Positions 1-25,821 of a DNA stretch of 25,821 nt are shown here, one piece after another. Under the pieces are notes generated by a model. That model was not told the DNA's origin and ran no database searches. It was given only the letters and a program-made list of their open reading frames with translations. A program made the translations under genes and the position numbers. The stretch is from a virus: the IMG/VR virus record IMGVR_UViG_3300050821_002251, positions 1-25,821 of that record; one strand, 5' to 3'. Each line of letters opens with the position of its first letter. Positions within the stretch are counted from its first letter, which is position 1.

Positions 1-1622
1 GTTGTGGCACCAGCAGCAAGGTTCTGAGTGGAATAGCCATTAACTACTGCTGTACCAGTAGCCCCGGTTGTTAAGATGCGTACAGTACAAGTATAAGTAC
101 CATTGTAAGCAGCGCTAGTACCAGTTGCCGTATCCAACATATTGCAAAGAGGAGTAGGGACAGATGCAGTATTCGTTCCATTTGCATCCCAAGCCACAAT
201 AATACGTGTTGAAGAGTCACCACCATCAGTATAAGTCCATTTACCAGAGATTCGAAATTCAGCACCAATGTAATTAAAACAATTGGCAGGGATGGTCCAA
301 CTGGCAATAGGATTGGGGACTGTAGTGGCAGAAGAACCATTAATACCGCCAGCAGCGTTCTGTTGAACTATATTTAGCGAAGAAGATCCACATGCACCTG
401 TACGTGAACCAGGAGCATAAGTGTAACTTACAGATGAATTGGTAAAGGTATGTTGACCAGTCAATGTATTTGCTGTGGTTGCAAGAACAGTGGCAAGTTC
501 AGCAGTATTTACTGGATAAGTGGTAATTTGAGCGCCACCAGTTGTAAATAAACCACCAGCACCATAAGTAGATCCAGATTGTCCATACGTTGTATTGGCA
601 ACAGCACAGGCAGGAGTAATTGTTTCTAGTTTCGTCATTGTGCAGACAGTAGAAGTAACTGGAATTTGATAGGCAAGAATGTAAGTGCCGCCAGATAGTG
701 ATAAGTAAGGGACAGCACCAACAGCACCAGTAGATGCAGCAGGAATACCAAGATCAATTGCCTTAGATGCTACAGATGTCCAAGATGTAGTTGCAGAGCA
801 TGGACCTTCATTACCAAAGATATCTACATATGCCCAGCAAGCATAAACAGTAGATCCCCATGATGCCGATCCAGCAACAGTAGCGTCGGAACACATTTGA
901 TGAGTGGCATCGCAAGCAGCTTGACCAGCAATATTAATTGCAGGAAGAGTAGGAGCAGCAAGAGCAGCGCCAGTGGGAGTTGGATTCCAGTTACGTGCAA
1001 CTCCTAGACGGGTATCTACAACAGATGTAAATGGCCATGGAACTGCTGTATTAATTAAAGTGCTAGTCCCTCCCATTTGTGCCCATGCGGTATCAACCAA
1101 AGCCTGACCGCCACCAAGAGTGTAAGCATAATTAAGGGCAGTTTGAAGTCCATAGGTTCCATCTACCACTACGGCAGATTGACCGTGAGTGTTAGTGAAT
1201 GTACCAGTGAAATAAACACAAGTTGTAACGCCACCAACGCCAAGATTACCAGCAGGACAAGTGGATACAGAGACAGATGTAGGAGTGACAGTCTCAGCAG
1301 CACCTTGACCCCAATCGAATATCATTGGAGTGAGGGTGTTGAATACAGTTTGTAGGGGAACAACGGTACCATCGGCAACGGTTACTCCTCCAGTGCCACC
1401 ACTTGTACCTGTAAATATTACAGTCTGCGATCCAGATGTGGAAGTATTGCCACTAATTACCCTGCCAGTCCAAAAGAAAGCAGGGGCATAGAACATTCCA
1501 CCAGGACGAGACAAAATGGATGGATTACCAGCGGCTCCAGGAAAATTCTGACCTTTAACTCCAAGGCTAATTGCTCCTACTGCAAGAATGACAGATAATG
1601 CGATTCCTAAGAACTTTTTCAT
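1..1622 (-). CDS. Exported Thr/Gly/Ala-rich protein, 3' end cut by window
   Basis: Reading the minus strand from the ATG at 1622, the frame stays open for 540 codons to the window edge, so the C-terminus is missing. The start has a GGAG ribosome site (ATGGAGACTATA before ATG). Residues 1-22 form a signal peptide: MKK, then a hydrophobic stretch rich in L, A, I and V, then an Ala/Gly region. The rest is rich in Thr, Ser, Gly, Ala and Val, with scattered Cys, typical of beta-structured surface, tail or adhesin proteins. A segment around residues 250-290 (Cys, Trp-Ala-Tyr-Val-Asp, then Gly-Asn-Glu-Gly-Pro) resembles a small beta-sandwich repeat. I do not recognise a named family. It is the last visible gene of the minus-strand packaging/virion block and is preceded by an AT-rich palindrome. 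A signal peptide is odd for a virion protein; it may instead act at the host envelope. The gene call is secure, the function is not. Confidence 0.85.
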   Translation of the reverse strand, partial: MKKFLGIALSVILAVGAISLGVKGQNFPGAAGNPSILSRPGGMFYAPAFFWTGRVISGNTSTSGSQTVIFTGTSGGTGGVTVADGTVVPLQTVFNTLTPMIFDWGQGAAETVTPTSVSVSTCPAGNLGVGGVTTCVYFTGTFTNTHGQSAVVVDGTYGLQTALNYAYTLGGGQALVDTAWAQMGGTSTLINTAVPWPFTSVVDTRLGVARNWNPTPTGAALAAPTLPAINIAGQAACDATHQMCSDATVAGSASWGSTVYACWAYVDIFGNEGPCSATTSWTSVASKAIDLGIPAASTGAVGAVPYLSLSGGTYILAYQIPVTSTVCTMTKLETITPACAVANTTYGQSGSTYGAGGLFTTGGAQITTYPVNTAELATVLATTANTLTGQHTFTNSSVSYTYAPGSRTGACGSSSLNIVQQNAAGGINGSSATTVPNPIASWTIPANCFNYIGAEFRISGKWTYTDGGDSSTRIIVAWDANGTNTASVPTPLCNMLDTATGTSAAYNGTYTCTVRILTTGATGTAVVNGYSTQNLAAGAT

Positions 1623-1658
1623 TATAGTCTCCATTAATTTAATTTAACTGAGCCTTTT

Positions 1659-3036: not shown

Positions 3037-4704
3037 TTACGCTCCTACTCTTTCAGATGGTCTGTGTATTCTGCCCAATCCCCCACGTCGCCTTCCCCTT
3101 AATATCCGTTCCTGTGCCGTGGCTCTACGGGACAAACAAGCAATAGTGTTGATGTCCATATCTTCCACTTTCTGACCGCGGTCCTTGGCATAGGCAATCA
3201 CTTTTTCATGGGCAGACTCAGCGATAGGCTTGACACCCTCACGTTGACGGGACTTATAACCATATCTAGCCGAATCCCAAGCATCATCACCATCAAATTT
3301 GACAATTTCCTCGGGATCATCCTCGTCTGTCGTAATCATAGGGATTGTTTCGATCAGACCTTTACAAGAGGGATCAATCTCCAATTCATTAGCTTTAAAT
3401 CCCTCATACATAGCCTGGGCACCATGTTTGCGATTGTTATCTGCTTCTGTTGGATATGGCATTCCATTCTCTTGGAATATCTCCCCCATTTGGGCAGCAA
3501 ATGAATCTTGTTCGGATCTACGTTGGAAGGCATCGGGAGACAGGTAAATAGCATCAATCAATTTACGTTCATCCCTGTCCATAGCATCGACAATTTCCTG
3601 GGCCTGGGCACGAGCAGAATGATGATTTGACATTCGCTCACGGTAAATTTTAGTGACGATACCAGCGCGGGCAAACCAATGGCAAGAACAAGGGTGTTGA
3701 AATCCCCAGTCAATTCCAAGCCAACGAGGATGCCAAGAGCGATCAGGTTGACATGGCTTTATATAGGGATGTAGTTGACCAGGGTTATAAGCCGGGAAAA
3801 TATCGTAGAATTGACCAGCAAATTCATCCCAATTGCCTAATAGCCATCCAGTTCTAAGGCGATGGGGAAGGTTATCGAGTTCATGGCCCCTCTGAGTGTT
3901 CTTAATGAAAAAATCAAATCGCTCCTGGTCAATCATGCCATTCTTAAACTTGACATGGCCATAAGTGCAATTTCCACCAAAATCAATTACTTTACGCCCA
4001 CGTTCATTAATACAGCCATAGTAATCGCAGGCATCAAGTCCTTTCTCTATAAGGGAAGTACGGCACCATTCAATGTTATCCCAAGCATACATCGGCATGA
4101 ACGCATAATCAGCAGCCCTTTCCCGGCCATAATAATCCTTCTTATACATCAGTCGTCTGATATAGGTATGGCCAGGACCACCAGGATTCATAGCCCATAA
4201 AGTCTTACATAATTTGTCGGGTATATCCTTGCCATTGACTTTGCCAGTCCAGCGTCTTGTTTCATTTAACTTGACTAGCTCCATTTCTGTCAATCGCGTG
4301 GCTTCATCGACAAAAACATCCATATATTCCTTGCCCTGAAAATCGTCAATGTCGCCAGGATGTTCAGCCACGGCAAACACAATACGTGACGGAGGCTTGG
4401 TTGGCAGATACAGCGTTTTCTCTGACGCTCGCCACCAGTCCCGCATAAATGGCCATGATTTAAAGTAGCCGCCCTCAAGGTGGGTATCGCGCAGTTGATT
4501 CCATTTGCGCCTAAATATCATTCCAGTCGTGCCAGGATATTTCAATCGCCGGATCAACATAGCGGATCGCATTAAGTGTGATTTGGTCGAACCTTTACTT
4601 CCGCCAATGCCAATAATTGACGGTCCAAATGCATCGTCTATCATTTCCAGCACAAGACGTTGTTTGGGCTGTAACTTGATGTTCAGGTCTATGTTGGAAG
4701 CCAT
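3037..4704 (-). CDS. terL: Terminase large subunit (ATPase and nuclease)
   Basis: 555 residues, usual length for the family. The N-terminal ATPase has a Walker-A-like loop GGSKGSTKS (about 34-42), Walker B MDVFVDEAT (128-136) with the catalytic Glu in DE, and the coupling motif AMNPGGPGH (171-179). The C-terminal RNase-H-like nuclease shows GIDWGF (Asp 332), IYLSPDAFQ (Asp 391) and an Asp cluster DGDDAWDSARYG (471-482), the three acidic positions expected for metal binding. It pumps DNA into proheads and cuts the concatemer. Its ATG overlaps the stop of the preceding Tat-signal gene by one base (TAATG). The Walker A loop is divergent, with Lys at the first variable positions and TKS at the end, as in several phage terminases. 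Confidence 0.95.
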   Translation of the reverse strand: MASNIDLNIKLQPKQRLVLEMIDDAFGPSIIGIGGSKGSTKSHLMRSAMLIRRLKYPGTTGMIFRRKWNQLRDTHLEGGYFKSWPFMRDWWRASEKTLYLPTKPPSRIVFAVAEHPGDIDDFQGKEYMDVFVDEATRLTEMELVKLNETRRWTGKVNGKDIPDKLCKTLWAMNPGGPGHTYIRRLMYKKDYYGRERAADYAFMPMYAWDNIEWCRTSLIEKGLDACDYYGCINERGRKVIDFGGNCTYGHVKFKNGMIDQERFDFFIKNTQRGHELDNLPHRLRTGWLLGNWDEFAGQFYDIFPAYNPGQLHPYIKPCQPDRSWHPRWLGIDWGFQHPCSCHWFARAGIVTKIYRERMSNHHSARAQAQEIVDAMDRDERKLIDAIYLSPDAFQRRSEQDSFAAQMGEIFQENGMPYPTEADNNRKHGAQAMYEGFKANELEIDPSCKGLIETIPMITTDEDDPEEIVKFDGDDAWDSARYGYKSRQREGVKPIAESAHEKVIAYAKDRGQKVEDMDINTIACLSRRATAQERILRGRRRGGLGRIHRPSERVGA

Positions 4705-5072
4705 TAAATTTTAATCCACTGGTTCTCAAATGCCCTTATTTCGGCATCGCTTGGAATAATCAATCTCTTTTGCTTCCCAGGCATCAATTTGGCATCTAAA
4801 TCAGCATTGAAAATTATTTTCCCCATTCGATGCTCTCTAAATCCAAATTCCTTCCAATATTTTGTCTCGTCAAATGATTGCGATTTTACAAGTGCCCCGC
4901 GCACATTTTTAAGAAATTTAATTTCCATTGATTCCAATTTTCTAATTGCATTGGCATCGAATAATTTAATTTTACTTGGAATTGAATATACTTTAAATGG
5001 AAATTCTTTTACCATCGCTGTGGCAGCGATTCCACTTATTAATGTTTGCAGGAATTGCCTTCTATTTACCAT
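4704..5072 (-). CDS. Tat-signal-bearing protein of unknown function
   Basis: A 122-residue protein beginning MVNRRQFLQTLISGIAATAM, an almost ideal twin-arginine signal (RRxFLQ) followed by a weakly hydrophobic Ala/Ile stretch. The mature part is basic and Lys-rich (LDAKLMPGKQKR near residues 92-103) with no recognised domain. It lies between the small and large terminase genes and is coupled to terL through a TAATG overlap. The start codon lies inside an AT-rich palindrome. By family knowledge such signals send folded proteins across the inner membrane, which is unexpected for a gene in the packaging operon. The motif could also be an N-terminal helix with another role. Confidence 0.8.
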   Translation of the reverse strand: MVNRRQFLQTLISGIAATAMVKEFPFKVYSIPSKIKLFDANAIRKLESMEIKFLKNVRGALVKSQSFDETKYWKEFGFREHRMGKIIFNADLDAKLMPGKQKRLIIPSDAEIRAFENQWIKI

Positions 5073-5333: not shown

Positions 5334-5867
5334 TCACTCATCCTTAGTATTGACCACATTTGATATGGTTACTGTCAGATGTCCCGCGCCATCGCCCGAA
5401 TCTGGCGTCAAGTGGCCGTGCAATCGGAGCGCTAGTTTGATCGCGTCCATTTGGATCGGATGATCGTCCACTTCCATCACATCAGTAAACTCACCATTCC
5501 ATGATGCCGCTATGATCTTCGAAGCCTTACGTTTAGAGTTTAATTGCGTTAGTAGATCTCGCGTTGACATCCCGATAGCATCCATGAGTTCCGGTAAACT
5601 CTCTCTCATTTTCTGCAGCGCTAGAGTTCCAGCACGTTCCGGGTGAGCGTACCCCGCAATTCTCGCTGATTCCGTAACTCCATTTCCGCTTATTAGAGAC
5701 GCTAGGAGGACTTTCCTACGAGGTTTAAGGGTAGATGCCATACCCTCAAGGGATCGTTCGCCTACGGCCTTCCTATCGCTTTCCATGGCCATTCTAGGAA
5801 TGATGTCTACTCTAACTTCACTGTTTTTGTCAACACCGATATTGGTACCAGTTCTATTCAACATCAT
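5334..5867 (-). CDS. terS: Probable terminase small subunit
   Basis: 177 residues, two genes upstream of terL on the same strand. Residues about 50-100 read KVLLASLISGNGVTESARIA, then GYAHPERAGTLALQKM, a helix-turn-helix like that of small terminases (a repeated 'step up, gap, new helix' with GY and Leu/Ala spacing). The rest is helical, with SKRKASKI and then DAIKLALRLHGHL, typical of the oligomerisation region. It would recognise the packaging site in phage DNA and load TerL. Start: AGGG lies 4 bases before the ATG at 5867 and 7 before the adjacent ATG at 5864; either could be used. The 40-residue N-terminal region before the HTH is variable, so a later start is possible. Confidence 0.75.
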   Translation of the reverse strand: MMLNRTGTNIGVDKNSEVRVDIIPRMAMESDRKAVGERSLEGMASTLKPRRKVLLASLISGNGVTESARIAGYAHPERAGTLALQKMRESLPELMDAIGMSTRDLLTQLNSKRKASKIIAASWNGEFTDVMEVDDHPIQMDAIKLALRLHGHLTPDSGDGAGHLTVTISNVVNTKDE

Positions 5868-7351: not shown

Positions 7352-7541
7352 CGTGAATCTCCCCGATGTCGATTAGGTGTGCGGCCATTCGTCCGTAGCT
7401 GCCCTGCAGTTGCCATGCTAGGCCAGTGTCTACTAATTGCTGGAATAGCTCATTCGTTTCTTCCTGATTCAATTCCCCTTGCTCGTACGCTGATATCGCA
7501 TCTACAAGGTGGAATTGTCCTTTCCTGATCTTTGGCTTCAT
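7341..7541 (-). CDS. DUF7417-like small phage protein
   Basis: 66 residues. The core [20 protein letters not shown], then [19 protein letters not shown], matches the very conserved small phage protein in which a 'GEL-x-E-E-x-x-x-LFQ-x-L' helix is followed by 'G-x-AW-x-LQG-x-YGR'. Function of the family is unknown; it is usual in early regions. GAGGAGACAG upstream (shared leader) fixes the ATG at 7541; an upstream ATG at 7598 lies before the leader and is rejected. Confidence 0.8.
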
Positions 7542-7678
7542 AGTTACTGTCTCCTCTGTGATCGAATTGGGATTGTGAGTCCCGGAATTGGCCCTCACTG
7601 GGAGGACCGCATCCTAGAATCACAACGTGTAGAACCATTCGAATGCTCTGGCAATGACGAGGTAAATGTAATACAAGA

Positions 7679-7981
7679 TTACTCTCCTTCCGTTTGATCT
7701 GTGTCAATGTAATCCATGTCATCCTCAGGTCTAGCCTCTGGATCATAATCGTAATAATCATCCTGATATCCTGGCGCATTGGTGGGGATTTGTACTGGAC
7801 TCCACGGTTCCGGTACATTGTCGGTGACTCTTTCCAGTGTGTCTCTGGAATCGAATTCCATGTGCAAGCCATTATCCCAGGCTTCAAGGTAGGCTTTCGC
7901 AAAGAGAGCGCGAACGTAATCCTTGCCAGCTTGTGACAGTGGCTCGATTCCATCCGCCGTAAACATCAGATCGCTATTCAT
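7679..7981 (-). CDS. Acidic small protein
   Basis: 100 residues. The N-terminal half is helical (GKDYVRALFAKAYLEAWDNG) and the C-terminal half is strongly acidic and Tyr-rich (GYQDDYYDYDPEARPEDDMD), ending TEGE. The leader CATAGAGGAGAAAATCACA precedes the ATG at 7981. Strongly acidic tails are common in phage DNA-mimic or host-inhibitor proteins, but nothing specific is recognised. Part of the 5992-8290 operon. Confidence 0.7.
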   Translation of the reverse strand: MNSDLMFTADGIEPLSQAGKDYVRALFAKAYLEAWDNGLHMEFDSRDTLERVTDNVPEPWSPVQIPTNAPGYQDDYYDYDPEARPEDDMDYIDTDQTEGE

Positions 7982-8029
7982 TGTGATTTTCTCCTCTATG
8001 AATTGAATTGGAATGACTAAGCATTCCCC

Positions 8030-8050
8030 CTACCCCTCAATGAAGGGTAG
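8030..8050. other. Intergenic hairpin
   Basis: CTACCC pairs with GGGTAG around a 9-base loop, between the stop at 8060 and the start at 7981. There is no U-run, so it is not a typical terminator; it could be an mRNA processing or stability element. Confidence 0.35.
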
Positions 8051-8059
8051 AGGCAATCC

Positions 8060-8290
8060 TTACTCGCAAATAGTCGGGTCTTCGCAATCAAAGCCTTCCG
8101 CATCCCTTGATTCCACTTGGGTCAACGGAACATCCAATGTGCTGGGGGATTCCGGTAGCGTCACGGTGCCATCGGATTCGACACCAATGGGAAAGTGAGG
8201 AACCACCTTGACCTTACGTGGCGCCCTGAATCCGATTTTGCGAACCTTAACCTTGCGGGAACCATCGGCCATTCTCTTTGCTTTTGCCAT
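8060..8290 (-). CDS. Small basic-N-terminal protein, first gene of minus-strand operon
   Basis: 76 residues: MAKAKRMADGSRKVKVRKIG and a Lys/Arg-rich start, then an acidic tail with two Cys (DAEGFDCEDPTICE). The first gene after the divergent control region on the minus strand. GAGGAGAAAACGCA before the ATG at 8290 is the shared leader; a longer reading from 8344 has no ribosome site. The basic half suggests nucleic-acid binding, which is inference only. Confidence 0.7.
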   Translation of the reverse strand: MAKAKRMADGSRKVKVRKIGFRAPRKVKVVPHFPIGVESDGTVTLPESPSTLDVPLTQVESRDAEGFDCEDPTICE

Positions 8291-8334
8291 TGCGTTTTCT
8301 CCTCTGTGTGTCGGGATTCGTTCCCCAACACTTC

Positions 8335-8480
8335 TAGATATCATGCCAAGAAACGAGTGTCAAGAGAAAAGTGTCAAGTGTTAACTAATTCATAAATAGA
8401 AATTTTACTTGATACTTTTACTATATAAATTTTACTTGACACTTTTTGTCAGTTAGTATACCCTTGACTTGCAACACTCC
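8335..8480. promoter_or_regulatory. Divergent control region with repeated TTGACA boxes
   Basis: On the minus strand TTGACA (8358-8363) is followed after 17 bases by TATCTA (8335-8340), a weak -10, leading to the gene at 8290; a second TTGACA lies at 8372-8377. On the plus strand AATTTTACTTGATACTTTT (8401-8419) is repeated as AATTTTACTTGACACTTTT (8428-8446), then TATACC at 8457 with a short 15-base spacer and TTGACT at 8464. ACTTGACAC-type boxes thus occur at least four times in both orientations, as in an operator array. The plus-strand promoter is less certain than the minus one. Confidence 0.5.
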
Positions 8481-22405: not shown

Positions 22406-22542
22406 ATTCAATCCCATATAAAGATAGATGGTGGGCAGTATTTGTATTTGTGTTTCTTTTACCAATCTGGATATTAGTAGCAGCGGGCGAGGTATATAGG
22501 AAATTTTTAGAAGAATTATGGGAATTTAATTCTAAGAAATAA
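22402..22542 (+). CDS. Small single-span membrane protein
   Basis: 46 residues: MNSIPYKDRWWAVFVFVFLL, then PIWILVAAGEVYRKFLEELW and EFNSKK. A hydrophobic helix (about 10-28) followed by a charged helix. Coupled by ATGA to the gene before, with AAGGAAAAG as ribosome site. Its last 11 bases overlap the end of the convergent endolysin gene. Confidence 0.6.
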   Translation: MNSIPYKDRWWAVFVFVFLLPIWILVAAGEVYRKFLEELWEFNSKK

Positions 22543-22945
22543 CATCATTATTAGCCTTAATCCACTGTGCAATTGTATCTAATGGATTAACATTCAATTT
22601 CTCAGTGACTATCTTACACCATGGACCTGCATTATCATTACCAGTATATCGCTGTGATAATTCATTGAATGTCATGTCAAGTGAATAGTAAAATGATTTA
22701 CCTGATAAAATAGCAATACATTCCCTACGTGCCGCTGCCCATCCATCGGTATGATCGTCAAGGGAACTATTGGGATCAGCATTGGCATAGATGGTCTTAC
22801 CGTTGTCTACTCCCCATCCACGATCACCAAGTTCCAGGTCGCAAGGATTATGGCATCTAAACGGAAGGCTCCCACTTACGTAGAAGCCCTCCGCAATAGC
22901 AATTGCATTGGATAATTGATAAGCTAATGTTGTAATAATGTCCAT
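22532..22945 (-). CDS. Putative endolysin (lysozyme-like)
   Basis: 137 residues. Residues 12-20 SNAIAIAEG place a Glu (19) where phage lysozyme/transglycosylase-like domains carry the catalytic acid. SLPFRCHNPCDLELGDRGWG, then DHTDGWAAARRECIAILSGK, MTFNELSQRYTGND and NPLDTIAQWI follow the order of small phage muralytic proteins ('xNNPxxLxxGD', 'DGWAAL', 'YTGxD'). It would cut peptidoglycan. No signal peptide, so a holin or similar is needed. AAGGTGAT precedes the ATG at 22945. Encoded last in the minus-strand lysis cassette, after the lipoprotein and two membrane proteins. Confidence 0.7.
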   Translation of the reverse strand: MDIITTLAYQLSNAIAIAEGFYVSGSLPFRCHNPCDLELGDRGWGVDNGKTIYANADPNSSLDDHTDGWAAARRECIAILSGKSFYYSLDMTFNELSQRYTGNDNAGPWCKIVTEKLNVNPLDTIAQWIKANNDVIS

Positions 22946-22954
22946 ACGATCACC

Positions 22955-23557
22955 TTAAGGGATAATTGAATGGCCATACTTTTTCATTTCATTCTTCTTG
23001 ACCACATCAATAGCCGGGAATGCTGATGGTTCTCCTAACACCTTCCTCATATGGGCATTCCAATATCCAGCGCTATGTGGAGGTTTAGCTCCAGTTTTGG
23101 CTAAAGATCCATTTGCCATTGCCGCTGCTACTGTGGTTGTGGATGCTGCTGTTTGAGGTATGGAATTGGCTATCTCTGCTACCATAGCTTCCAAGGCAGA
23201 GGTAACCGCTGTTACTTGGGCTTGCTCTGCTGGATTTTTAATTTGTGCAGCATTTACCAGGGCAGTAGTGTTCTGTTGGAGTACAGCCACATCAGCGTCA
23301 ATCTGGCCAACAGTGGTGGTAGCAGCATTATTTTGGAGATCGCTTAGGAGTTTAGTTAAAGCAGCATCGGCAGCCTGTTCAATTCCCACAGCGGTATCAA
23401 CAGCCCCAGCAATTGCGGGATCAGCCACGGCAATTACAGCACCAAGAGTAGTTGCAACTGTATTGACTACCCCAAGAACATCAATCACATCTTTTTCCCA
23501 TGAACATCCCACCATTGCCAAGCAAACACAAAGTGACAATATCAGCCATTTCTTCAT
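22955..23557 (-). CDS. Ala/Thr-rich lipoprotein
   Basis: 200 residues from ATG 23557: MKKWLILSLCVCLAMVGC, a lipoprotein signal peptide with Cys 18 after MVG (Met at -3 is a loose fit), then SWEKDV. The mature part is Ala, Val and Thr-rich and mostly helical (TVATTLGAVIAVADPAIAGA), with a more compact end (GYWNAHMRKVLGEP). AGGAGG fixes the start; an in-frame ATG at 23584 is rejected. It overlaps the preceding gene (ATGA). A lipoprotein in a lysis cassette could act as an outer-membrane spanin part, but it is much longer than usual o-spanins. Confidence 0.7.
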   Translation of the reverse strand: MKKWLILSLCVCLAMVGCSWEKDVIDVLGVVNTVATTLGAVIAVADPAIAGAVDTAVGIEQAADAALTKLLSDLQNNAATTTVGQIDADVAVLQQNTTALVNAAQIKNPAEQAQVTAVTSALEAMVAEIANSIPQTAASTTTVAAAMANGSLAKTGAKPPHSAGYWNAHMRKVLGEPSAFPAIDVVKKNEMKKYGHSIIP

Positions 23558-23787
23558 TTTTCCTCCTGTGTTGTTTGTGACCATTTCAATATTTGTGGTA
23601 CATAAACTATTCCTTCTCTAATTACAATTGCAGGCACAACAACAAACTTGGCAATATTCCATAATCCTAGCGCTGTATTCCAATTGTATTGTGATGGATT
23701 ATGATATACCGGGCCAAGCGATAGTAAAGCAGCATTGACAGCATTTTTAGCTATATTAATTAATACTGTTTTTACTGTGGGATTCAT
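23554..23787 (-). CDS. Small membrane protein of lysis cassette (holin candidate 2)
   Basis: 77 residues from ATG 23787, preceded by GGAGATTGAA: MNPTVKTVLINIAKNAVNAA, then ALLSLGPVYHNPSQYNW and LWNIAKFVVVPAIVIREGIV. Two hydrophobic segments (about 8-26 and 40-58), basic/charged end (KWSQTTQEEK). Size and layout fit a holin, but no family signature is recognised. The ATG follows the previous stop by one base. Confidence 0.55.
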   Translation of the reverse strand: MNPTVKTVLINIAKNAVNAALLSLGPVYHNPSQYNWNTALGLWNIAKFVVVPAIVIREGIVYVPQILKWSQTTQEEK

Positions 23788-23788
23788 T

Positions 23789-24037
23789 TCAATCTCCATT
23801 TTTAATTCTATTAACCCACCAAGTGAACATAGGTTCCATCATGGAAGCAATCTTTGTTTCAATTGTTGTTAATCGTTTCTGATTTTCAAGATGCATTTGT
23901 AGATCTTGTTGCATTGTTTCCTCGTGCATACGCTGTGCCTCATGTCTAGTATCTAACCAGAAAATAATAAATGGAACAAGAACTACTCCCATGACTTCTA
24001 TATGTGTCCAACTGAATAGTGGATCGGATTGTTGCAT
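23789..24037 (-). CDS. Membrane-anchored coiled-coil protein (holin or spanin candidate)
   Basis: 82 residues from ATG 24037 (GGAG upstream): MQQSDPLFSWTHIEVMGVVL, VPFIIFWLDTR completing one membrane helix, then a charged coiled coil (RMHEETMQQDLQMHLENQKR) and MEPMFTWWVNRIKNGD. One N-terminal membrane span with a coiled coil after it resembles an inner-membrane spanin or a class III holin. The longer frame to 24133 has no ribosome site and runs into the gene before. Confidence 0.55.
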   Translation of the reverse strand: MQQSDPLFSWTHIEVMGVVLVPFIIFWLDTRHEAQRMHEETMQQDLQMHLENQKRLTTIETKIASMMEPMFTWWVNRIKNGD

Positions 24038-24050
24038 AATTATACTCCAA

Positions 24051-24362
24051 TTAGGAAGTCTGTGTAATTGTGAAGCTAGTGACTTGACCAGCAACAACAG
24101 GAACCTGTACAGATCCTTGAGCCACATTCCCATTAGGTAAAGTTGCCGATACAGTAAGAGTGATTGTTCCTGTCTCTAATCCAGTCAATTGCGTCGTGAG
24201 TCCAGTAGGATCAGGATTGGGATTCGCTACAGTTGCAATTAAAACATTACTGGATGTCCATTGCGGTACTACTCCTGCTGGTAAAATAGCTCCCACTGGA
24301 TTAGGAATGGCAAGGAAATTCCCTGGCGTCCCTACTGTAATTCCAATCGGTGTAACTGGCAT
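24051..24362 (-). CDS. Bacterial Ig-like domain protein
   Basis: 103 residues from ATG 24362, with AAGGGGGA upstream: MPVTPIGITVGTPGNFLAIP, then VVPQWTSSNVLIATVANPNP, LTGLETGTITLTVSATLPNG. The order 'WxSSN-x-x-x-ATV...G-x-x-TxL..G-x-x-T-T-x-T-V' is typical of bacterial Ig-like (Big_2) domains, which in phages decorate tails or capsids and help binding to surfaces. No signal peptide from this start; an upstream ATG at 24443 lacks a ribosome site. Confidence 0.7.
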   Translation of the reverse strand: MPVTPIGITVGTPGNFLAIPNPVGAILPAGVVPQWTSSNVLIATVANPNPDPTGLTTQLTGLETGTITLTVSATLPNGNVAQGSVQVPVVAGQVTSFTITQTS

Positions 24363-24478
24363 TAGAATCCCCCTTATTTGATAAATGTTAAATGACTTTA
24401 CTTTCCTTTTCCTTCTAAATATAAATCTCACATTAAACCTCATAATCAGCAGGGGTCGAATGGGACGTTAACTCCACT

Positions 24479-25096
24479 TCACATAGCCTGTTGTGACGCA
24501 AATGCTTCTGTAGCATCCTGTACCGAGAACGTCACTATCGTCCCTACCGGCACTGTCACTTGTTCTGCAAATGATCCGCTGGCAGGAGCAATATCACCTT
24601 GATTGACAAAATTAGTGCCATTGCTAAAAGAAAAGTGTTGACCGACATTATTGCTATTTGTCCATTGAGCAGTAACAGTTTCATTATTACCATTAATATT
24701 TATGGCTACTGATGTAATTGACAGGGTAGGTGGATTAGGATTACTAGGGGTAGTAAAGGTAACTTCATTTGAAAAGGCAGACTGTTGTGCCCCTCCAGTT
24801 GTATCCGCTGTCATTACACAAAATTGCGTTGTTCCTGCTGTAACTGATGTATCGACATAGGAAGTACCAGTAATTAAAGTTGATCCATTAACAGGATTGA
24901 CAGCAGTTTCCCCACCACTAGTAGGGGCACAATAAAGGTTATATCCCGCCACAGTAATCCCAGTTGGTTGAGATGCGGGTGTCCATGTGAAAGTGGTTGA
25001 ATGTGCCGTTCCTGTTGCCGACACAGCACCAGGATTGGGAGAGGCGTGGACCTGGATAGCAATAAACAATCCAAACAAAAGTATTAGTTTCTTCAT
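24479..25096 (-). CDS. Exported fibronectin type III protein
   Basis: 205 residues from ATG 25096, with AAGGAG 7 bases upstream: MKKLILLFGLFIAIQVHASP is a signal peptide with a clear AS-P cleavage site. Then FTWTPASQPTGITVAGYNLY, TSYVDTSVTAGTTQFCVMT and SAFSNEVTFTTP form a fibronectin III domain ('Y-x-x-Y', 'Y-x-D', 'S-N-E-V'). The second half is another beta-sandwich (VTAQWTNSNNVGQHFSFSNG). It would bind surfaces or sugars outside the cytoplasm. The start at 25123 overlaps the LuxR-type gene and lacks a ribosome site. Confidence 0.75.
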   Translation of the reverse strand: MKKLILLFGLFIAIQVHASPNPGAVSATGTAHSTTFTWTPASQPTGITVAGYNLYCAPTSGGETAVNPVNGSTLITGTSYVDTSVTAGTTQFCVMTADTTGGAQQSAFSNEVTFTTPSNPNPPTLSITSVAININGNNETVTAQWTNSNNVGQHFSFSNGTNFVNQGDIAPASGSFAEQVTVPVGTIVTFSVQDATEAFASQQAM

Positions 25097-25107
25097 GTTT
25101 AATCTCC

Positions 25108-25449
25108 TTATGACTTTAAACACCTATCAATCAATTCACGTCTATTCTTAGCACTGTAAGCCAATAATAATGCACTGACATGGAACTTAATAGTTCTTTC
25201 ACTAACATTTAAACTTGACGCTATTTCCTTATTGGTCCACGACACATTATCAATCATAATCTTTAATATTTGCCATTGACGTGGAGTGAGACGAACCTTA
25301 CCTCTTCTACGATTAATCTCATTTGATATTCTTTCAGCAAGATGTTCCTCTTGTGCAATTTTCTCAGTAATCCTATCTTTCAATAAATTAATTTCATTGT
25401 GTACTCGTTCCCATTGATCCCAAAGACTGCTTGATTTGCGTTTACTCAT
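25108..25449 (-). CDS. LuxR-type helix-turn-helix regulator
   Basis: 113 residues. Residues 12-48 are a charged coiled coil. Residues 54-110 are a LuxR/GerE HTH: LTPRQWQILKIMIDNVSWTN, KEIASSLNVSERTIKFHVSA, then NRRELI. All key positions (L-T-x-R, NKEIA, T-x-K-x-H-V, NR-x-E-L) are kept. There is no sensor domain; the coiled coil may dimerise it. The start at 25449 lies 7 bases from an AT-rich palindrome and has no clear ribosome site. It is probably a phage regulator; target unknown. Confidence 0.8.
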   Translation of the reverse strand: MSKRKSSSLWDQWERVHNEINLLKDRITEKIAQEEHLAERISNEINRRRGKVRLTPRQWQILKIMIDNVSWTNKEIASSLNVSERTIKFHVSALLLAYSAKNRRELIDRCLKS

Positions 25450-25456
25450 TATTGTC

Positions 25457-25482
25457 TGTAATTACAATTATAATTATTATTG
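25457..25482 (-). repeat. AT-rich palindrome, copy 9
   Basis: TGTAATTACAATTATAATTA then TTATTG, between the stop of the DUF4091-like gene and the start of the LuxR-type gene; it overlaps the last codons of the former. Confidence 0.7.
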
Positions 25483-25821
25483 CCCTGCAATCATCAATAC
25501 CCCTACTTTTGGTGGTGCTGGGGTTACTGCTGCCGATGGATAGCTAATAGTTTGCAATTGATTACCAAGTGCTATCCTGGCCGCTTGTAATCCACTTCCA
25601 GTAGTTTCAAATGTATATGAATTGGTGATCCAGCTAGTAATTTGTGTTTGCACTAATGAACCGTATCCTAATTGTGTCAATTGATTTAAATACTCATAAT
25701 CTTGTACGCCATCACGGATCAACTTTAATCGTAAACTAGGGAGGATAATAGGTACAGTTACTCCTGCTCCCATATAATTAGGATAGCCAGAGACAATCCC
25801 ACCGGGATAAACAAGAGTTCC
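25477..25821 (-). CDS. C-terminus of DUF4091/GH123-like protein, 5' part outside window
   Basis: Open from the right window edge, so only the last 114 residues are seen: GTLVYPGGIVSGYPNYMGAG, then LPSLRLKLIRDGVQDYEYLN. The sequence 'LVYPG...(S)LRLKLIRDGxxDYEYL' is the signature of DUF4091, the C-terminal part of glycoside hydrolase 123-like and related enzymes acting on host glycans. The remaining residues form helical repeats and end MIAGQ. The ATG at 25773 is internal. A depolymerase or tail-associated glycan enzyme is plausible, but the catalytic region lies outside the window. Confidence 0.7.
   Translation of the reverse strand, partial: GTLVYPGGIVSGYPNYMGAGVTVPIILPSLRLKLIRDGVQDYEYLNQLTQLGYGSLVQTQITSWITNSYTFETTGSGLQAARIALGNQLQTISYPSAAVTPAPPKVGVLMIAGQ

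Follow-up and report, generated by a model that had tools for sequence, protein, structure and literature searches.

A diverged GH123-type C-terminal region at the edge of a tailed-phage record and its relatives in three other phages

Known GH123 enzymes serve glycan degradation and utilisation in bacteria, and nine residues are described as invariant across the superfamily, namely D95 and W115 in the N-terminal domain, D327-E328, Y392, G427, W431, and Y466 and R478 in the DUF4091 region (PMC11087588). The same source assigns oligosaccharide-releasing activity to Group 1 of the superfamily and raises the possibility that these enzymes break down long exopolysaccharides made of repeat units, the actual substrates not being identified there; in the solved enzymes the DUF4091 region is enclosed by the other two domains, and substitution of its conserved Tyr or Arg causes the protein to precipitate (PMC11087588). 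Among the solved structures, PDB entry 8k2f is labelled as an oligosaccharide-releasing beta-N-acetylgalactosaminidase, which we infer to be NgaCa of Cohnella, and entry 8k2h as an oligosaccharide/monosaccharide-releasing beta-N-acetylhexosaminidase.

The window analysed here is an entire virus record of 25,821 bases, which is probably a fragment because reading frames are cut at both of its ends. The PHROG match of a terminase large subunit identifies the phage of the window as a tailed phage, and at the right edge lies the 3' part of a gene whose sequence leads to the GH123 superfamily:

3037-4704, minus strand: terminase large subunit (phrog_979, PHROG E 5e-16)
25477-25821, minus strand: C-terminal 114 aa of a GH123-superfamily protein, DUF4091 region, truncated at its 5' end where the window stops (sequence comparison)
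25687-25734, minus strand: DUF4091 signature LRLKLIRDGVQDYEYL (sequence)
25807-25821, minus strand: GTLVY, the last part of a (D)G-x-L-x-YPG motif (sequence, and alignments with PDB and Nostoc proteins)

This frame of 114 codons runs on the minus strand from 25821 to a stop at 25477, is open at the right edge and has no start codon among its first 16 codons. Any catalytic region of the gene would lie beyond the right edge of the record, and the window holds the C-terminal part alone; an exact 23-base probe made from the last bases of the window matched no other viral contig.

The initial annotation had read the edge frame as a DUF4091/GH123-type C-terminus, and this is borne out. The frame contains PSLRLKLIRDGVQDYEYL, a hallmark of the DUF4091 region in GH123-type proteins. 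We built a C-terminal HMM from the C-termini of a Nostoc protein and of a protein on the IMG/VR contig L027, both of which lie outside the window and outside the close phage clade; the edge frame scored 44.1 bits among 461 six-frame segments, whereas the top score among 92,200 shuffled segments was 10.0 bits. When the fragment was compared with the PDB by phmmer, 8k2f was matched at E 7.1e-5 and 8k2h at E 1.2, and the remaining three matches were unrelated proteins (E 0.26–1.5). A single BLASTP comparison with the Nostoc glycoside hydrolase gave 32 identities in 97 positions (E 1e-11). The fragment reached no family in Pfam, PHROG or NCBIfam, its lone Pfam match being an unrelated family at E 0.25.

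Relatives were sought by pattern scans of a viral collection of 2.9 million contigs, and three close ones were found in IMG/VR, on contigs L002 (44.7 kb, phage G001), L005 (53.7 kb, phage G003) and L003 (96.3 kb, phage G002). Over 94–95 positions the window copy is 68.4% identical to that of L002, 66.3% to that of L005 and 69.1% to that of L003; the phage copies are 55–69% identical to one another and 28–30% identical to the Nostoc protein. The DUF4091 signature with its conserved Tyr and Arg is present in the window and in all three relatives, the position of the Tyr being ambiguous and every candidate for it being present in the window. Codon-position differences between the window copy and that of L002 were 29/16/72, and third positions differed most in all six pairs of the four phage copies. 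Moreover, dN was 0.24–0.30, and dS was saturated and not computable in four of the six pairs and 1.8 and 2.2 in the other two. The excess of third-position differences, together with the dN and dS values, thus indicates that the edge frame is under purifying selection.

The scan for the DUF4091 motif gave five stretches, i.e. the three known relatives, L027 and L029; that for the Asp-Glu motif gave two, both already known; and that for the stretch from W-x-Y to G-x-L-Y-Y gave four, the three known relatives and L034, which was rejected as a chance match inside an unrelated frame. Degenerate DNA scans of this kind may miss the window's own record and copies with motif changes. L027 (2473-4308, minus strand), a contig of 178.9 kb in IMG/VR, encodes a Group-1-like GH123 protein of 612 aa that has an additional region at its N-terminus. 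The 8.3-kb contig L029 ends in an incomplete DUF4091-type protein of another kind (7517-8299, minus strand), which has a YDEAP motif, and portal- and capsid-looking frames were also seen by eye on this contig. Two pattern scans of a genome collection, with 50 stretches each, yielded no relative by tblastn; the patterns had been built from phage sequence and were narrow, and hence this result does not show that the gene is absent from bacteria. A collection of 50,697 cultured-phage records contained nothing that matched the L002 protein at E 0.01 or the Nostoc protein at E 0.1.

The relatives give a probable whole-protein architecture, which the window lacks. The L002 and L005 proteins, of 671 and 709 aa, consist of a signal-peptide-like start, a GH123-like N-terminal domain that is homologous to that of 8k2f by profile comparison, an Asp-Glu pair in the context FDYL(V/C)DEP (D375 E376 in L002) and a DUF4091 end. 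The L003 protein (7566-8348 of that contig) is only 261 aa long and has its own, signal-peptide-like start; it lacks the N-terminal half and the Asp-Glu pair, and what remains are apparent last barrel strands and DUF4091. When the whole L003 record was searched for the missing half, only query residues 455–663 were matched, and tblastn of L003 3001-7800 for N-terminal remains gave nothing better than E 0.55. The neighbour of the L003 gene encodes a large protein with a signal-peptide-like start, which by eye resembles a beta-helix and has no such Pfam match. The catalytic domain that had been expected upstream of the DUF4091 end appears to be present, with the Asp-Glu pair, in two of the three relatives, whereas the third, L003, has an upstream part of the kind that the initial annotation had named as refuting it. 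Because the window copy is almost equally similar to L002, L005 and L003, similarity does not tell whether it is full length or truncated; from the relatives, we consider it reasonably likely, well short of assured, that the window copy also has the catalytic part.

No phage copy reached the GH123 cut-offs of Pfam, and the window fragment had no GH123 match at all. The scores were 16.2 bits against a cut-off of 27 for L002 (PF22680), 16.1 against 27 for L005 (PF22680) and 16.6 against 23.1 for L003 (PF13320). The phage proteins thus appear to form a diverged branch of the GH123 superfamily, and their homology to it is claimed from profile comparison rather than from a Pfam assignment. In hhalign, the two full-length phage proteins aligned with the pair of Nostoc and L027 proteins at a probability of 99.7 (E 8.6e-26) over the protein length. 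Of the N-terminal beta-sandwich and (beta/alpha)8 barrel that mark the superfamily, the other sequence profiles cover the N-terminal domain. The family assignment made at the outset is supported by this comparison and by the PDB match of the fragment. As we read the hhalign columns, the phage Asp-Glu falls on the cellular Asp-Glu, and two of four MAFFT settings agree; the other two shift the phage pair by 28 columns from the cellular one, and a further protein alignment also misplaces it. AlphaFold models, with a mean pLDDT of 29.8 (A1, 4 sequences) and 32.7 (A6, 5 sequences), were unusable for the fold.

By our own mapping, eight of the nine invariant residues are conserved in L002 and L005. 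The exception is the substrate-contacting Trp431 of NgaLy, which is replaced by Tyr in these two, in L003 and also in L027; for D95, the phage proteins offer two candidate Asp residues. The window spans only the last two invariant residues, and both are present, the Tyr as any one of three. The first Arg of LRLKLIRDGVQDYEYL is the likely equivalent of the structural Arg478 of NgaLy, and the Tyr of GTLVY is one candidate for the structural Tyr466; the others are the Tyr of SGYP and the Tyr of NYMG (codon 25774-25776), between which the alignments disagree.

In the PDB, the structure 8k2f ranked first for the window fragment, for the L002 protein and the A1 profile, and for the Nostoc and L027 proteins, the last two of which match it at near full length (L027, E 2.1e-74; Nostoc, E 1.6e-176). 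Its lead amounted to many orders of magnitude for the A1 profile and for the L002 and L027 proteins, in what is a similarity ranking rather than a tree of all groups. With the A1 profile, antibody chains (E 0.0074 and higher) ranked second, above other GH123 structures (E 0.035–0.037), and were taken as chance matches. This ranking places the phage proteins nearer to Group 1 than to Groups 2–4 or classical GH123. In the full-length phage proteins, the N-terminal domain, the apparent Asp-Glu pair, W-x-Y, G-x-L-Y-(Y/W) and the DUF4091 signature occur in the same order as in 8k2f and Group 1. The phage proteins differ, however, in being phage-borne, in their length of 671–709 aa compared with 516 in 8k2f, with extra internal stretches, in having Tyr for an invariant Trp, in falling below the Pfam cut-offs and in having one natural form without the catalytic part.

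The Nostoc protein is WP_256875414, a glycoside hydrolase domain-containing protein of a plasmid of Nostoc sp. C052. When 72,556 plasmid records were searched with the L005 protein, it alone was matched (31.6% identity, 43% covered, E 4e-8). Unlike the phage relatives, it is cellular and has no signal peptide by our heuristic. Its gene (L013 3965-5455) lies between a glycosyltransferase gene and an NAD-dependent epimerase gene, in a neighbourhood of glycosyltransferases and this epimerase, and this position therefore suggests a link to polysaccharide metabolism.

We then compared frames of at least 100 codons from the window and from G001, G002 and G003 at E 1e-4. The GH123-like gene was the sole gene matched in every pair of the four phages, at 54.6–68.1% depending on pair and segment, and against G001, G002 and G003 alike it was the window's sole match above 40% identity. 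In addition, a terminase-sized stretch matched at 20% between the window and G001, and there were a few other matches in single pairs, at 38% or below. Similarly, when 47 window proteins were compared with the three relative records by tblastn, the GH123-like gene alone was matched at E 0.01 or better. Because it is highly similar in very different phages, the gene looks exchanged between phages, and its being the sole match above 40% to each of the three is what would be expected of a selected, exchanged gene.

Acidobacteriota are abundant soil bacteria, and their phages have been little studied. The Tunturi isolates of 2025 are, to the knowledge of the authors who reported them, the first reported phages of this phylum (PMC11924767). 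G002 clearly resembles one of them, the cultured phage Tunturi_3 of the acidobacterium Tunturiibacter, since 38 of its 111 frames matched at E 1e-3, with the portal at 64% and the terminase at 49%. G003 resembles Tunturi_1 weakly, with the terminase and the major head protein at 24% and the portal at 21%, the comparison covering positions 1-45,900 of the 63,169 of Tunturi_1. From this kinship, the hosts of G002 and, more weakly, of G003 are probably Acidobacteriota, a prediction that applies to these two phages and is not extended to the window phage or G001. In L005, a part of the capsid region (3228-3752) matches the major head protein of Tunturi_1, and the major capsid gene (3228-5012) appears by eye to be interrupted by an insertion in which one frame looks like an HNH gene; a sub-threshold Rfam match to a group I intron (21.9 bits, E 0.0068) lies at 4248-4453.

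Signal-peptide-like starts were called with a hand-made heuristic, slightly wider for the Tunturi phages, which likely includes false positives (e.g. the window frame 5337-5867). It called 5 of 38 frames in the window, 5 of 41 in G001, 7 of 57 in G003 and 12 of 111 in G002, some of them surely false. By this heuristic, the GH123-like protein has a signal-peptide-like start in all three relatives, and so does the product of the gene directly upstream in all three records; the GH123-like gene is thereby placed among other genes with such starts. In Tunturi_1, five of the six consecutive genes gp12–gp17 (L033 10371-23028) have signal-peptide-like starts, compared with none of the eight genes examined upstream (out of gp1–gp11), and in Tunturi_3 none of the 19 genes examined (of 147 in total) has one. 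G002 carries the truncated gene and two signal-peptide-bearing neighbours just beyond its homologue of Tunturi_3 gp10; at the corresponding place Tunturi_3 has gp7–gp9, of which gp7, the one examined, is without such a start. Such runs of large fibre- or spike-like genes with Sec-type-like starts thus occur in Tunturi_1, around the GH123-like gene of L002, L003 and L005, and in the window at 24479-25096 and 3-1634. The Tunturi_1 genes gp14 and gp17 (annotated as tail spike and virion structural proteins) are like the phage relatives in having signal-peptide-like N-termini within a run of such genes. They differ in that the phage collection that includes the Tunturi records gave no GH123 match, and in gp17 the domains found are chitobiase C-terminal and Fn3-associated ones, along with a sub-threshold match to a beta-helix. 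A precedent for a Sec-exported phage enzyme is the endolysin Lys44 of phage fOg44 (PMC6116005). The likeness is a phage enzyme sent out by the Sec system of the host, but Lys44 is a lysis enzyme that acts on the cell wall, whereas the enzyme proposed here would be a glycosidase of an outer polysaccharide.

The genes next to the edge frame, and the gene at the other end of the window, are as follows:

25108-25449, minus strand: LuxR/GerE-type helix-turn-helix protein of 113 aa, the next gene downstream (PF00196, GerE, E 1.7e-12)
24479-25096, minus strand: 205-aa protein with a signal-peptide-like start (heuristic), weakly FN-III-like (PDB 1x5k, E 0.01)
24051-24443, minus strand: 130-aa frame, weakly Ig-like (Big_2 E 0.052, below the cut-off)
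22532-24133, minus strand: genes of 114, 81, 209 and 137 aa, a presumed lysis region (by position only)
3-1634, minus strand: 544-aa protein, open at the left edge, with a signal-peptide-like start (heuristic)

It had been proposed that the edge gene works with the FN-III and Ig-like proteins, and beyond their nearness we found nothing in favour of this. The 205-aa protein has no FN-III match in Pfam, 1x5k is its one PDB match for FN-III, and its gene has no relative in the scan of viral contigs. We rejected a functional unit of these proteins with the GH123-like gene, since the LuxR-type gene intervenes before both, the domain matches are weak and the FN-III-like gene has no relative in that scan. 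The place of the LuxR/GerE-type gene, between the GH123-like and FN-III-like genes, is an unexpected one for a regulator. Genes of the presumed lysis region gave only weak matches, at E 0.018 or higher (the PHROG search covering the 209- and 137-aa genes), and the 544-aa protein had no family match in Pfam, PHROG or NCBIfam and no phage match. PADLOC found no defence genes among five selected window proteins, and the window has no tRNAs and no Rfam families.

We give roughly an even chance to the reading that the fragment is the C-terminal DUF4091 region of a phage-encoded, Sec-exported, Group-1-like glycosidase of the GH123 superfamily whose gene is mobile. The protein would be made in the infected cell and would cross the inner membrane by means of its signal peptide, and its Asp-Glu pair would support substrate-assisted hydrolysis of a beta-GalNAc linkage. 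The substrate may be a long envelope polysaccharide or exopolysaccharide of the (acido)bacterial host, probably one containing GalNAc, and thinning of this layer would help the phage in release, spread or entry. The role of a depolymerase, which the initial annotation had put forward, is plausible because the nearest solved enzyme, 8k2f, releases oligosaccharides and because degradation of exopolysaccharides has been suggested for such enzymes (PMC11087588); it is a fair hypothesis that the relatives place on a better footing. A bolder proposal, which we regard as rather doubtful, is that unrelated Acidobacteriota phages share an exchangeable cassette of fibre- or spike-like genes with Sec signals, including a GH123-type glycosidase, that would be secreted before lysis and would strip or remodel the host exopolysaccharide from within, one lineage having lost the catalytic half to leave a binding or structural protein.

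Two other readings, each of which we hold unlikely though deserving of weight, overlap with one another and are not exclusive. The window gene could be a truncated, non-catalytic form with a signal peptide, the last barrel strands and DUF4091, serving as a glycan-binding, adhesive or structural protein. The example of this in G002, with its own start and no N-terminal remains found, and the identity of the window copy to it, as high as to L002 and L005, agree with such a form; two of the three relatives are nevertheless full length, and because DUF4091 is buried and mutants of its Tyr and Arg precipitate, a free-standing piece is not obviously stable. Alternatively, the protein could be a virion-bound enzyme of a tail spike or fibre that cuts a path through the capsule at adsorption, its hydrophobic N-terminus not serving export. 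A cleavable Sec-type signal is unnecessary for virion assembly in the cytoplasm, yet all three relatives start in a signal-peptide-like way, and the lack of such starts in the genes examined upstream of the Tunturi_1 cluster argues in the same direction, as does the Pfam search, in which neither full-length protein showed a tail-attachment domain. The L005 gene does lie among structural genes, however, and the Tunturi_1 genes labelled as tail spike protein and virion structural protein also have signal-peptide-like starts; these labels are annotations, and the word 'spectrometry' is absent from the main text of the paper (PMC11924767).

Given that known GH123 enzymes act in bacterial glycan use (PMC11087588), the gene might instead be a host-type carbohydrate gene, i.e. 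an auxiliary metabolic gene that benefits the host or serves feeding during infection rather than breaching a barrier. We consider this improbable, as the phage copies are far closer to one another than to the Nostoc protein, and no sugar transport or catabolic gene was seen by eye next to the gene in the listed frames of the relatives, some of which were also compared with families. That the assembly fused a bacterial gene onto the terminus of a phage contig is very improbable: although the match sits at the very edge of the record, its closest matches lie inside three IMG/VR virus contigs from three datasets, two of which carry genes for the head and for packaging that resemble genes of cultured phages, and the two scans of the genome collection, with their narrow patterns, found no relative.

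We know of no GH123-type fold among phage depolymerases. In the open-access literature, no paper that links GH123 or DUF4091 with phages was found, and the available text of a paper on soil-virus CAZymes contains no GH123 (PMC10227523). A GH123-superfamily enzyme in phages would add a fold to the known phage depolymerases, and would give a lead to the natural substrate of the oligosaccharide-releasing group. Moreover, the signal peptides make it a testable claim that these depolymerases would be secreted rather than borne on the virion.
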